DNA from: Winogradskyella forsetii
GTDB taxonomy: Bacteria > Bacteroidota > Bacteroidia > Flavobacteriales > Flavobacteriaceae
Length of the DNA: 64,000 nt
Direction: 5' to 3'
Assembly (NCBI RefSeq): GCF_013394595.1
Contig: NZ_CP053348.1
Coordinates: 3,382,501-3,446,500, forward strand
The position numbers and the translations under genes were made by a program. This document shows positions 58,633 to 64,000 of this stretch, one piece after another (the stretch's first letter is position 1; every line of letters starts with the position of its first letter). The notes below the pieces were generated by a model. The model worked only from the letters and a program-made list of their open reading frames with translations, was not told the DNA's origin and ran no database searches.

Positions 58633-58640
58633 TACCTTTG
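58633..58640 (+). promoter_or_regulatory. Candidate -7 box for gldB-gldC
   Basis: TACCTTTG matches TANNTTTG. The start predicted from it lies before the ATGs at 58677 and 58689 and after the in-frame TTG at 58638, so the TTG start can be excluded. Confidence 0.5.
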
Positions 58641-58688
58641 CACAACAAAAATAACGCAATAGTGTTAGGATTAAAAATGTTTTACCAA

Positions 58689-59651
58689 ATGCAGATTAAA
58701 TTTTATATTTTATTAGCTGTCGGATTGCTATTTCTGTCATGTAATGAGGAGTCTAAGGTTGAAAAAGAGATAGCGACCATTGAAGCCGATTTCACTGTTG
58801 AACGTTTTGACAAGGCTTTTTTTGAAGCTAAACCCGAAGATTTATCGACATTAAAAGAAGCGTATCCGTTCTTCTTTTCTAAACGTGTCCCAGATTCCAT
58901 TGTGATTCATAGAATGAAAGACACTTTACAACATGAATTATTAACGGAAGTCCAAAATACGTTTCCAGATTTTAAAAACACAAAACAAGAATTGGAAGGC
59001 TTATTTCAACATTTAAAATATTACGATAAAACATTTACCGTCCCACGCGTAATTACATTGACAAATGACGTCGCATACCGAGACAAAACCATAGTCAATG
59101 ATTCCTTAGTGCTTATTGCTCTAGATAACTATTTAGGAGCTGACCACAAATTTTATCAGAACATACCCGTGTTTATTGCGGCAAATATGCGTAAGAGCCA
59201 AATTGTAGTTGATGTGACTGATAATTATGCCAAAAAATACAGCTTTCAAACCGATAGAAAAACCTTATTGGATGAAATGATCTACTTCGGGAAGTTACTT
59301 TACTTTAAAGATGTTATGATTCCGTTTAAAACAGATGCTGAAAAAATTGGTTATACCGAAGCTCAGATCAAATGGGCAGAAGCCAATGAAAGTCAAATAT
59401 GGAGCTATTTTATTGAAAAGGAATTGCTGTACGATACAGATCCTAAATTACCAAACCGCTTTATTGCAGACGCTCCTTTTTCTAAGTTTTATTTAGAATT
59501 GGACAATGATTCACCAGGGCGCTTAGGGCAATATATAGGTTGGCAAATTGTAAAAGCCTACGCCGACACAACAGGTGAAGATATCATAACCATAATGCAA
59601 ACAGAGCCACAAATTATATTTAACAAAGCTAAATTTAAACCCAAAAAGTAA
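58689..59651 (+). CDS. gldB: Gliding motility lipoprotein GldB
   Basis: A lipoprotein required for gliding in Flavobacterium. The ATG at 58689 gives a tight lipoprotein signal (MQIKFYILLAVGLLFLSC); the ATG at 58677 is an alternative. The body begins 'TVERFDKAFFEAKPEDLSTL' and contains 'LLDEMIYFGKLLYFKDVMIP' and 'DSPGRLGQYIGWQIVKAY', characteristic of GldB. Its TAA overlaps the gldC ATG (TAATG). In Flavobacterium gldB and gldC are also adjacent, which supports both calls. Presence implies a gliding/T9SS-competent organism. Confidence 0.93.
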   Translation: MQIKFYILLAVGLLFLSCNEESKVEKEIATIEADFTVERFDKAFFEAKPEDLSTLKEAYPFFFSKRVPDSIVIHRMKDTLQHELLTEVQNTFPDFKNTKQELEGLFQHLKYYDKTFTVPRVITLTNDVAYRDKTIVNDSLVLIALDNYLGADHKFYQNIPVFIAANMRKSQIVVDVTDNYAKKYSFQTDRKTLLDEMIYFGKLLYFKDVMIPFKTDAEKIGYTEAQIKWAEANESQIWSYFIEKELLYDTDPKLPNRFIADAPFSKFYLELDNDSPGRLGQYIGWQIVKAYADTTGEDIITIMQTEPQIIFNKAKFKPKK

Positions 59652-59989
59652 TGTCTAAAATTATTAAATCGAAAATAGTATTAAACGTTGAACTCGATGA
59701 AAATCGCGTACCGGAAAAACTAAATTGGTCCGCACAAGATGGTGGCATAAACAACGAAGAAGCGAAAGCCATAATGTTATCGGTTTGGGATGGCAATGCG
59801 CAGGAAACATTGAAAATAGATTTGTGGACCAAAGATATGCCAGTTGATGAAATGAAACTCTTTTTTCATCAAACTTTAGTCACTATGAGTGATACATTTC
59901 TAAGAGCGACCCAAGACGAAAAAATGACCGCTACCATGAAAGATTTTTGTGATTATTTTGCTGAAAAATTAGAGTTGAAAAAACAGTAA
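59651..59989 (+). CDS. gldC: Gliding motility protein GldC
   Basis: A 112-residue soluble protein ('SKIVLNVELDENRVPEKLNW', 'MPVDEMKLFFHQTLVTMSDT'). It matches GldC in length, sequence and position directly after gldB with a one-base stop/start overlap. In F. johnsoniae GldC is needed for fully efficient spreading. A strong terminator follows immediately. Confidence 0.93.
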   Translation: MSKIIKSKIVLNVELDENRVPEKLNWSAQDGGINNEEAKAIMLSVWDGNAQETLKIDLWTKDMPVDEMKLFFHQTLVTMSDTFLRATQDEKMTATMKDFCDYFAEKLELKKQ

Positions 59990-59991
59990 AT

Positions 59992-60028
59992 AAAAAATCC
60001 CAGACTAAAATTTAATCTGGGATTTTTT
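59992..60028. terminator. Bidirectional terminator between gldC and paralogue 1
   Basis: AAAAAATCCCAGA pairs with TCTGGGATTTTTT. It serves gldC on plus and paralogue 1 on minus. Confidence 0.93.
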
Positions 60029-60056
60029 AATTTTTAGGGAGTACATTATAACACCC

Positions 60057-61073
60057 TTACAGATTACCTGCTTCGTTTTCTGATTTATAATACGGCTCAA
60101 TCTTAAAACTTTCTGAAGCAACATTCATATAATCCTCTTTATTCTTTCTTTTGTGTTGCACAAACTTAGTTGGATCATAAACAGTCCAAACAGTAAGTTC
60201 ATTTAATCGACCTGTCTTTGTTCTCTTGTCAATTTCATTCTTTTTAATCAAACGATCAACCGCTTCTTGGTCACTCATTTTCTGTATTTTCTCAGAACCC
60301 TGACCATTGTTAATCCTATAAACTACCCAATAGGTACTAACGATTCTATTGGATTTTGCCAAGTCTATATTTGGCATCGTTAATTCTGCATCTTTCTCAA
60401 CACCTTTCGATGTCGATTTAAATAACGATAAGCTACTGGTCATAGGTTTCTTTTTCTCTTCTATTGCCTTTTTTTCTGCAACATTAGGTGTTTTTGGAGA
60501 TGATGCTGCTTTTTTACCAGCTACCGCAAAATCTATTTTTTTCATATGGCTTTCTTCTCCATAAGTCTCCTTATTATTATTGTTAGGTAAAGCTGATTTC
60601 TTTGTTTCTAAAGCTACTTTTATGTCTTCCTTAATAATTGGCTCTTCAATTTTTTGTAGTTCAACATCAGCAATGACTTCTTTTTTTGGAGTTGTTTTTC
60701 TGCCAAAAAGATCTGAACTATCCGTTATTGAAGGAGCTGATTCAAGAACATCAAAGGGTTCATTTCTCAATAAAGTAATCACAATTAATTTATCACTAAG
60801 AAGCGCTTCAACAATATATCTACCCACCGGAACATCTGCAATAGGTATAACAACATCATTATCCTTAACTTTTATGACACGCTCAAAATCGTCATTAAAA
60901 ATTACGACTTCATAAATGGTACGTTCACATTTAAAAATAAGGTGATCTCCAGTGTTGTTGAGATTATGCTTTAGCTCTTTGGCTCTAACATTTACATTTT
61001 GATAAAGGGTGGATTTTTGACCATAAACTATAGATGCCAAAAGCACGAATACGAAGGTATACAGTAGTCTCAT
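60057..61073 (-). CDS. Tandem two-domain secreted protein, paralogue 1
   Basis: The ATG at 61073 starts a signal peptide (MRLLYTFVFVLLASIVYGQ); the ATG at 61112 is further upstream and less likely. The N-terminal domain has AKELKHNLN, VVIFNDDFERVIKV and VPVGRYIVEALLSDK. A long charged linker, about 120 residues rich in Lys/Glu/Pro, follows. The C-terminal domain has STYWVVYRINNG, NELTVWTVYDPTKFVQ and FKIEPYYKSEN. Three more copies lie upstream on the same strand, differing mainly in linker length. I do not recognise the family. The N-domain resembles the beta-sandwich of T9SS tails. Confidence 0.8.
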   Translation of the reverse strand: MRLLYTFVFVLLASIVYGQKSTLYQNVNVRAKELKHNLNNTGDHLIFKCERTIYEVVIFNDDFERVIKVKDNDVVIPIADVPVGRYIVEALLSDKLIVITLLRNEPFDVLESAPSITDSSDLFGRKTTPKKEVIADVELQKIEEPIIKEDIKVALETKKSALPNNNNKETYGEESHMKKIDFAVAGKKAASSPKTPNVAEKKAIEEKKKPMTSSLSLFKSTSKGVEKDAELTMPNIDLAKSNRIVSTYWVVYRINNGQGSEKIQKMSDQEAVDRLIKKNEIDKRTKTGRLNELTVWTVYDPTKFVQHKRKNKEDYMNVASESFKIEPYYKSENEAGNL

Positions 61074-61373
61074 AATAAGTAGGTTTTTTGTTTTGGGAAA
61101 CAATTTGAGCATTAAACCAACTGTTGGGGCTGGCTATATGCTATCGACAAAGTTATTCGCTTTTTTGTATCCTGTTTTCTATTTCAGACGCGCTACTTGT
61201 TTTTTAGTTAATGTGCATTAACGGTCGTTAAAACACTTAAAACACCTTATAAACGGAAAATTTGAACTTTTTTTAAAGACCTTTTAATTTTTTAAAATGA
61301 GCTTAACAAATTTTCCACATAAATCTAATCTGGAAATAGAACTATTTAAAAATGGATATATCATTAGTGAACC

Positions 61374-62132
61374 CTAAAGATTGGCTACTTTATTATGGGT
61401 AGAAAAGTAGGGTTGCGTATTAAATAAATCTGACGTCAATGAATAGAAAAAATCAGGATTTGAAACCTGATGTTCCATAAATTTTGTTGTATCATAAACT
61501 TCCCAAACCATCAATTCGTTTAGTTTACCCGAAGGACTATTGAGCTCTAGCCTATGTTTCAGTATCATTCTATCAGCCGTTTTTTTATCCACTAATTGCA
61601 TGGTTTTACTAGAACCGCTTTCATTATTTATCTTCGTTACCGCCCAATAAAATTTTTGCTTTTTAGGTGTCTGTTTTTTTGACTTTGCTCCTGTTAACAT
61701 TAAGGCAATACTCTTATTTGGTGTTTTGCTTATCACATTTAGACTTTCGTCTAACATCATGCCCTTACCTTCAGCTATGTCATTATTATTGTAAGATTTG
61801 TTCTCTATATCATAGTCGTATCGCATTAAACCAAAGATAAAAATCTTATCATCTAATTTAGCTTCAACAACGAATTTGCCTTCTGGTATGTCATTTAATG
61901 GAATTTGTGCATCCAATCCATCGACTTGGACTATTTTTTCAAAATCTTCGTTAAAAATGTCAACCCGCAAAATTTTAGTTTTACTACTTAATAGTAAGCT
62001 ATCATTAGAAGCATTCAAATTATGCTTTAGTTCTTTTGCTTTCGGATTAAAGTTTTTTAACAATGTAAAATTTTGACCATAAGTACTTAAAATGGAAAGT
62101 AGGACGAGTAGTGTGCAGATGTTCTTTATCAT
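61374..62132 (-). CDS. Tandem two-domain secreted protein, paralogue 2
   Basis: The start at 62132 (MIKNICTLLVLLSILSTYGQ) gives a clean signal peptide and is preferred over the ATG at 62192. It shares AKELKHNLN, VDIFNEDFEKIVQV and IPEGKFVVEAKLDDK with paralogue 1. The C-terminal part has KFYWAVTKINNESGSSKTMQ, NELMVWEVYDTTKFME and FNTQPYFSTHN. The linker is shorter (~50 residues) and carries 'SKKQTPKKQK'. It is separated from its neighbours by ~300 bp of AT-rich DNA, so each copy probably has its own promoter. Confidence 0.8.
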   Translation of the reverse strand: MIKNICTLLVLLSILSTYGQNFTLLKNFNPKAKELKHNLNASNDSLLLSSKTKILRVDIFNEDFEKIVQVDGLDAQIPLNDIPEGKFVVEAKLDDKIFIFGLMRYDYDIENKSYNNNDIAEGKGMMLDESLNVISKTPNKSIALMLTGAKSKKQTPKKQKFYWAVTKINNESGSSKTMQLVDKKTADRMILKHRLELNSPSGKLNELMVWEVYDTTKFMEHQVSNPDFFYSLTSDLFNTQPYFSTHNKVANL

Positions 62133-62495
62133 AACATTTACTTTTAAAATTTGAGGGCGGTTTTCAAATATTGTGGTGTTAGAAAACATCAATATTTGCT
62201 TATTCTAACACTAAGTTATGATCATATATCTATACGCAATTATTTATAAGACATGTTGCATTTTTTTTAGACAATACACGCCCTTTTACGATATAAAGCA
62301 AAAAAATAGGATTTAATTGAATGGTGTAAATATGTGAAATAGCCATATAAAGTAGTCAATTTACAATAGTTTGTTCGTCATTCCTTTACGACCAATTGAG
62401 AGCGACAAAAATTAAATTATAAGACGAATAGAATTTAATTCTCTACAAGTACTAAAGTTATTTGTGAGCTTAATACAAATAGTATAAGCTATCAG

Positions 62496-63218
62496 TTATT
62501 GAGAAACCTCATTATTACTTTTTGAGGTGTAATAAGGTACAACATTAAACACATTTGATTCAGAAGATTTAAAATAGGTACTATTTCGCAGCTGCTTGCG
62601 CATAAACTTTGAGGTGTTATAGACTTCATAAACCAGCAATGTATTATTCTTTGCAATTTCTGTACTTAGTTCCAATTTATTCAAGGAAATCATTCGAGAG
62701 ACTTCTTCCTCATTTTCCATACTCATAGATTTATAGGTGCCAGAAGTTGTGTTTTTTTCATATACCACCCAATACAATGACCGAACCGTGTCTCTTTTTT
62801 TTGTTAATTTTTTGGTTCCTAATATTGAAATATGATCCGAATGTTCTACTTCACTTGTTGTAGTGACAATTTTAGGTTCCTCAACCTTTGGCTCTATAGG
62901 TTCATTATTCACGAGATACATGATAATCCGTTTTCTCCCCAGTCTCGCTTGTACAATAAATTCTCCTATTGGTAAATTGCCAACGTCAATTTTAGATTCA
63001 TTACCGTTGACCATAACGGTTTGCATATAGTCATCATTAAAAATATCGACTTGTCGGATTATTTTTTCACTCTTTAAAATTAAACTATCTGCATTTTTAT
63101 TGAGACTATGCTCCAATTCACGAGCGTCACTATTTTCATTTTTTTGAAATACTACTACCTGTCCAAAACTAAAGCTGGAAAATAGAATAAATAGTAGTAA
63201 GCAAAAATTTTTAATCAT
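62496..63218 (-). CDS. Tandem two-domain secreted protein, paralogue 3
   Basis: A 240-residue copy with signal peptide MIKNFCLLLFILFSSFSFGQ. The N-domain has ARELEHSLN, VDIFNDDYMQTVMV and LPIGEFIVQARLGRK. The linker is short. The C-domain has SLYWVVYEKNTTSGTYKSMS, NTLLVYEVYNTSKFMRKQLR and FNVVPYYTSKSN. It is closer to paralogue 4 (KFMRKQLR, NTL(L/V)VYEVYNT) than to 1 or 2. Function unknown; periplasmic or surface location expected, with no sorting tail. Confidence 0.8.
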   Translation of the reverse strand: MIKNFCLLLFILFSSFSFGQVVVFQKNENSDARELEHSLNKNADSLILKSEKIIRQVDIFNDDYMQTVMVNGNESKIDVGNLPIGEFIVQARLGRKRIIMYLVNNEPIEPKVEEPKIVTTTSEVEHSDHISILGTKKLTKKRDTVRSLYWVVYEKNTTSGTYKSMSMENEEEVSRMISLNKLELSTEIAKNNTLLVYEVYNTSKFMRKQLRNSTYFKSSESNVFNVVPYYTSKSNNEVSQ

Positions 63219-63252
63219 GGTGCATTAGAATACATTGAGTATAATATAAAAT

Positions 63253-63292
63253 AGTTTAAACGTTTTGATTTTGTGCGAAAATCCAATTTTTT
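63253..63292. repeat. Intergenic motif, copy 1
   Basis: AGTTTAAACGTTTTG followed by CGAAAATCCAATTTTTT resembles 63541-63584 (GGTTTAAACGTTTCG then TGAAAATTTGAAATTTTTTT). A shorter form, GAAAATTTGAACTTTTTTTA, occurs at 61256-61275. All lie in spacers of the paralogue array. Confidence 0.5.
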
Positions 63293-63540
63293 CACCCTGT
63301 TATAGCCTATTTTTTTTTAGAACCATATACTCAGCCATGGAACGAAAATAAACCAAAACCAGAATGAAACAATAAAAATTTTCAGCTATAAGAAAACGCT
63401 TAAACTACCTGAATACAAAGATATTAAGAATTAGTGTTATCGCATATCTTTATTTGTGCATGTCATAGTTTATTTGCGTATTTTGACGAAATTAACAGTA
63501 ATAATGTTCTACTGATACTATATAAATTTACAAATCAAGT

Positions 63541-63584
63541 GGTTTAAACGTTTCGTTTTGAAGTGAAAATTTGAAATTTTTTTG
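63541..63584. repeat. Intergenic motif, copy 2
   Basis: Second copy of the motif at 63253-63292, in the spacer between paralogues 3 and 4. The rest of this 473-bp spacer (63219-63691) shows no gene. Confidence 0.5.
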
Positions 63585-63658
63585 AACAATTTAAGTCAAT
63601 TTTGAGCGCGTAGACCGAGCAGATTTAAGTATAAAACCTTTGATTCAATAGAGCCATT

Positions 63659-63732
63659 CCTATTATAAATCAGAAAATTTAAAAGTATGATCTAATGGGT
63701 TCCTACATTTAAATTTTCTGATTTATAATAGG
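63659..63732. repeat. Perfect 25-bp inverted repeat at the 3' end of paralogue 4
   Basis: Left arm 63659-63683 and right arm 63708-63732 are exact reverse complements around a 24-bp loop, extended slightly by a G-T pair. The right arm encodes the conserved PYYKSEN end of paralogue 4; the left arm is its mirror after the stop codon. There is no T-run, so it is not a normal terminator. Confidence 0.9.
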
Positions 63733-64000
63733 GATTAACATTAAAAAATCTTGATTTAGATGATTTAAAGTATGTTGGTTTTCTAAGTTGTTTACGCATA
63801 AACCTTTTAGTATTATAAACTTCGTAAACAACCAATGTATTGTCCTTTGCAATCTCTGTACTCAATTCCAATTTGTTCTTAGAAATCATTTTAGCTACCT
63901 CCTGCTTGGTTTTAAAACTCATTGTTTTAAACGATCCCGATCCCATATTTTTCTCATAAACAACCCAATAGCTAATACTTAGTTCTTTTAATTTTTCTCT
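63692..64000 (-). CDS. Tandem two-domain secreted protein, paralogue 4 (N-terminus beyond window)
   Basis: The open frame runs from the window edge to the TAG at 63692. The visible 102 residues are the C-terminal domain: ISYWVVYEKNMGSGSFKTMS, ELSTEIAKDNTLVVYEVYNT, KRFMRKQLRKPTYFKSS and VNPYYKSENLN. An internal Met in YEKNMGSG is not a start, because the frame and homology continue upstream. Close to paralogue 3. The stop lies in the loop of the 25-bp inverted repeat. Confidence 0.8.
   Translation of the reverse strand, partial: REKLKELSISYWVVYEKNMGSGSFKTMSFKTKQEVAKMISKNKLELSTEIAKDNTLVVYEVYNTKRFMRKQLRKPTYFKSSKSRFFNVNPYYKSENLNVGTH

Follow-up and report, generated by a model that had tools for sequence, protein, structure and literature searches.

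Here, we show that the end of a 64,000-nucleotide stretch of Winogradskyella forsetii DNA (the window; bases 3382501-3446500 of a 4.5 Mb genome on a single contig), together with the bases directly beyond it, carries four tandem minus-strand paralogues, copies A, B, C and D, and that these are members of a real, unnamed and old accessory family of exported two-domain proteins. On profile, profile-profile and Foldseek comparison alike, the N-terminal domain (N-domain) is remotely related to the type A C-terminal sorting domain (CTD) of the type IX secretion system (T9SS). The C-terminal domain (C-domain) has no relative in the PDB by sequence or fold and has not been described before. As a tentative interpretation, which we prefer but hold at less than even confidence, the four proteins would be Sec-exported, non-lipidated envelope adaptors in which a flexible tether joins a CTD-like docking module to a new binding module.

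Four paralogues with a common architecture

The four genes, all on the minus strand, are copy A (60057-61073, 338 amino acids (aa), of a gldC-proximal group), copy B (61374-62132, 252 aa), copy C (62496-63218, 240 aa) and copy D (63692-64408 in window numbering, with 63692..64000 inside the window; 238 aa). For copy A, an alternative in-frame ATG lies upstream at 61112 and was judged a less likely start. The N-domain is encoded at 60759..61016 (copy A, residues 20-105), 61818..62075 (copy B) and 62904..63161 (copy C), and the C-domain at 60060..60341, 61377..61658, 62499..62783 and, in copy D, about 63695-63973. An earlier note on this DNA had described consecutive minus-strand genes with both domains in common, and the coordinates and the matches between copies bear this out. 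Its statement that the array runs past the window is also correct, as copy D extends 408 bases beyond the window end, but its "at least four" becomes exactly four: copy D is the last, no fifth copy follows it, and the next genes are DUF4230 and then, as named by eye, rhodanese, TetR and paa genes.

Copies A and B are similar over their full length (E=8e-44), whereas copies A and D give separate matches for the N-domain (E=1e-21) and the C-domain (E=8e-16) that exclude the linker. The similarity is therefore not a low-complexity effect, which the earlier note had named as a possible source of error, and the paralogy is independent of the linker. Pairwise identity among the copies is 35-39%, with 55% for the C/D pair. 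The linkers do differ as that note had claimed, but their lengths of about 120, 50 and 30 residues are replaced by measured values of about 141, 54, 42 and 41 residues for A, B, C and D. In the full-length AlphaFold2 model of copy C, the linker (residues 109-144) is predicted to be disordered, and over 80 related copies the length of the linker follows the tree group for the most part.

All four N-termini have a basic residue and a hydrophobic stretch ending in YGQ or FGQ; by inspection, these appear to be Sec signal peptides of the signal peptidase I type, with which the N-terminal helix in the AlphaFold2 model agrees. A lipobox cysteine after the signal peptide is found in 0 of the 80 copies, and none of the array genes has a C-terminal T9SS sorting tail, while a PF18962 search of the same genome lists 83 places elsewhere. 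These features were correctly recognized in the earlier note, and together they suggest a location in the periplasm or the outer membrane.

The description of the family as unrecognized also stands. Scans of the array proteins with Pfam, NCBIfam and PADLOC gave no family match, PHROGs gave only two weak matches to families of unknown function (E 0.04-0.06), and PDB sequence searches with full-length and C-domain profiles gave nothing. Weak matches to SLAM, Peptidase_M6 and FakA-like models were scattered and below the cut-off, and were rejected.

The CTD-like N-domain and the new C-domain

The likeness of the N-domain to T9SS CTDs, which the earlier note did not report, is seen at several levels. 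In whole-genome searches, the array profiles match genuine T9SS CTDs at profile positions 40-106, with the stop codon directly behind. CTDs of the same genome score up to 19.4 and 17.4 bits with the N-domain profiles, compared with maxima of 6.4 and 5.1 bits for 330 shuffled or reversed sequences. Alignment of N-domain and CTD profiles with hhalign is in register (P = 1e-4), and the N-domain LN.T.D motif aligns with the PNP site of the CTDs. The NCBIfam T9SS DNase model matches copy D (E=0.011), and only the final 60 positions of the model, where its CTD is expected, take part in the match. The AlphaFold2 model of the N-domain has a predicted local distance difference test score (pLDDT) of about 88 on a shallow alignment, and in Foldseek the N-domain of copy C matches the RemA-CTD 8gl6 with probability 1.00, a template modelling score of 0.68 on the target and a root-mean-square deviation of 3.0. 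Matches to the NucA-bound translocon chain 8glk_D and the mirolase-CTD 8qb1 were also obtained, all CTD matches having probabilities of 0.99-1.00.

The array N-domain thus has in common with the type A CTD (PF18962/TIGR04183; the RemA, RemZ and NucA CTDs) an immunoglobulin-like (Ig-like) beta-sandwich, in-register remote similarity and its occurrence in Sec-exported Bacteroidota proteins. In contrast to these domains, it is not C-terminal but occupies residues 20-105 of proteins of 238-338 aa, has H.LN.T.D instead of PNP, is followed by a tether and a second domain, and falls below the family model, as PF18962 and TIGR04183 gave no hmmscan match to the array proteins at E up to 5. Elsewhere in the genome, a 143-codon open frame at G000:C1:2806016-2806228 is half filled by a PF18962 CTD and represents a nearly CTD-only small protein.

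The closest relatives of the N-domain are secreted stand-alone proteins of about 130-145 aa, typically encoded between a GDPD gene and namZ. We define these here as an unnamed namZ-adjacent family of Flavobacteriaceae, with an N-domain homologous to that of the array; its profile matches all four array copies (2e-12 to 5e-14), and it has invariant RE and GKH. The source genome holds one such further homologue, a single-domain protein beside namZ (G000:C1:3073593-3073994). The array profile finds matches in 35 of 237 sampled Flavobacteriaceae genera, mostly to stand-alone forms, and a phylum-wide sample added one weak match only. Unlike the array proteins, the namZ-adjacent proteins are without the C-domain, and the longer paralogues that some genera add next door carry a different tail (TR.EYR..NLRPNGKPYD).

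The C-domain of copy B was modelled by AlphaFold2 as a beta-beta-alpha-beta-alpha fold with a mean pLDDT of 89.6. Its best Foldseek E values against PDB and BFVD were 0.24 and 0.03, for small beta-alpha matches with no consistent theme. Among 248 genomes of the order, a C-domain profile search gave matches in the source genome alone, and a search with the two-domain profile found one other genus (genome G060), so that the C-domain is nearly genus-specific; in the only other sampled species of that second genus the two-domain gene is absent. Conserved C-domain residues are W, N, G, L, Y, F, F, P and Y; these positions include no candidate catalytic set and no conserved cysteine, a pattern that suggests binding or a structural role.

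Docking module or generic sandwich?

How could such proteins act? In the adaptor interpretation, the N-terminal beta-sandwich would have its origin in the T9SS type A sorting domain, or an ancestor in common with it, and would no longer be a cleavable C-terminal sorting tail. A disordered tether, its length depending on the paralogue, would link it to the C-domain. The CTD-like module may dock on an outer-membrane or T9SS partner that normally recognizes such folds, possibly a carrier of the PorV type or related to it. The C-domain has no conserved catalytic residues and may bind a second envelope or surface partner; the adaptors would then be periplasmic or outer-membrane-associated. PorV-type carriers are obvious partner candidates for two reasons: their binding of CTDs depends on shape and on contacts that are mainly hydrophobic (PMC10994853), and PorA of Porphyromonas gingivalis, a CTD protein with a non-cargo role in T9SS signalling, binds PorV (PMC7712824). 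Similar to copies A to D, PorA is an exported protein in which a CTD is paired with another domain; however, the PorA CTD is C-terminal, its other domain is FimH-like and it is encoded by a single gene.

Several points weigh against this interpretation. The first-ranked Foldseek match of the N-domain is DUF3244, and no Foldseek match has an E value below 0.001; as DUF3244 has the same fold, the sandwich may carry no T9SS meaning. CTDs have a near-invariant lysine close to their end (PMC10994853), and the conserved lysine of the N-domain (86-87%) is not securely equated with it, as hairpin lengths differ. The array is convergent with gldC and outside its operon. Intact copies are missing in 9 of 69 genus members and in most of the family, and are therefore dispensable for gliding and the T9SS generally. 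Finally, we infer both the partner and the location of the four proteins.

A serious alternative, to which we likewise give less than even weight, is that copies A to D are generic Ig-like envelope or periplasmic proteins. They would have only the fold in common with DUF3244 and CTDs, would have no T9SS partner, and could serve as a scaffold for binding a ligand or polymer such as peptidoglycan or exopolysaccharide. DUF3244 structures indeed match as well as CTDs do, the proteins have a Sec signal only and no sorting tail, and in many genera the stand-alone homologue lies beside a GDPD gene and namZ, which encodes an exo-N-acetylmuramidase. However, wherever the two were seen together, namZ lay on the opposite strand and so has no operon link with the stand-alone homologue. 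Sequence profiles also prefer CTDs: in a search of the source genome at E<=1, the DUF3244 model PF11589 finds CTD proteins but none of the array genes. The array and DUF3244 proteins (BT_1867, BVU_0276) have a small Bacteroidota beta-sandwich of similar fold in common, and we know of no DUF3244 protein with a C-domain of the array type.

A further-reaching version of the adaptor interpretation, which we regard as unlikely, is the exaptation of a T9SS sorting domain. Detached from cargo and moved to the N-terminus of periplasmic proteins, the domain would have expanded within the genus into several adaptors or regulators; these would take up the carrier or translocon site of cargo CTDs and thereby tune the export or anchoring of surface proteins. 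An N-domain that still engages the T9SS carrier would mimic the CTD naturally without being cargo, and would offer a handle on the regulation of CTD recognition. Our analysis in any case defines two unnamed domain families, the N-terminal CTD-like domain of many Flavobacteriaceae genera and the nearly genus-specific C-domain, and CTD-like sequences away from the C-terminus may escape models used to find cargo.

An accessory locus beside gldB-gldC

The array occupies a fixed setting, also absent from the earlier note: the main locus in the genus reads gldB-gldC-[0 to 4 copies]-DUF4230, and the array lay between gldC and DUF4230 in every main-array context viewed. In the window, gldB (58638..59651; PF25594, TIGR03514) and gldC (59651..59989; PF19937, TIGR03515) are on the plus strand, convergent with the array, and an inverted repeat with 22-nt arms and a 1-nt loop (59988..60032), terminator-like for both strands, lies between gldC and copy A. 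Full two-domain genes are present in 60 of the 69 genus genomes, numbering 1-4 in the largest cluster; copy number thus varies between related strains, a point that the earlier note had suggested testing. Family members occur at more than one place in 11 genomes, mostly reflecting a second locus, although contig breaks may split clusters. At this second locus, a gene for a T9SS CTD-bearing protein follows the two-domain gene in the same orientation after 129-302 bases in 4 of 5 cases, which counts in favour of the adaptor interpretation; the neighbour is large, and in the one that was scanned it is DUF7619.

Seven genomes without an intact copy were examined at the gldC-DUF4230 site. In four, DUF4230 is the direct neighbour of gldC, at a distance of 73-157 bases. 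In two more, the gene next to gldC is, by eye, amidohydrolase-like. The seventh, G234, has an intact gldC and, next to it, a decayed two-domain gene interrupted by 15 stops (G234:C2:3567-4127), a case of gene loss in progress. Unrelated passenger genes, by eye acetyltransferase-like, amidohydrolase-like and small proteins, are found among the family copies in this interval, which is an accessory-gene hotspot.

The constant position could also mean that the proteins are accessory components of the gliding machinery. We consider this improbable: the array converges on gldC across the terminator-like repeat, copy-free genus members retain gldBC intact, the two-domain homologue in G060 is not beside gldBC, and the locus also holds the passenger genes.

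From the local expansion and the diversified linkers, the earlier note had suggested a role in recognition or conflict, in which diversifying paralogues would face phage, competitors or surface ligands. The tandem copies and their variable number would fit such a role, as would exchange between species: the block 62600..65000 (approximate end, window numbering), which spans most of copy C, all of copy D and most of DUF4230, is 97-100% identical to the sister genome G229, with sharp edges and flanks of mostly 74-94%, and stems from a recent inter-species recombination. However, a tree of 80 copies has three groups, namely A, with 32 rows and support of 99/93, B together with its relatives, and C/D, with 12 rows and support of 100/100, the last including second-locus copies. 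These groups are orthologous across the genus, so that the paralogues are old and do not stem from a recent burst. G229 has the same four genes, and dN/dS (non-synonymous to synonymous rates) between the two genomes is 0.03-0.15 for N-domains, 0.01-0.12 for C-domains and 0.17-0.36 for linkers (copies A-C); the copy D protein is identical. All regions are under purifying selection, the linkers being only relaxed, and the comparison with the sister species gave no sign of positive selection on them. PADLOC gave no match, nor did the phage families give an informative one, and a conflict role, already weakened, seems quite unlikely.

Most improbable is that A to D are true cargo of the T9SS and that their N-domain serves as an internal sorting signal of a non-canonical kind: the CTD-like fold, the signal peptide and a T9SS-rich genome with 83 CTD places would fit, but the domain is N-terminal, whereas the CTD of canonical cargo is at the C-terminus (PMC12618676), the PNP motif is absent and PF18962 failed to match.

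Two further features of the array were observed. An inverted repeat at 63656-63690 / 63701-63735 has 35-nt arms, 91% complementary, and a 10-nt loop; one arm lies within the 3' coding end of copy D, and the repeat is oversized for a plain terminator. The Bacteroidetes promoter-like motif TAnnTTTG is present upstream of copies A, C and D, and was not counted as evidence because it also occurs inside genes.

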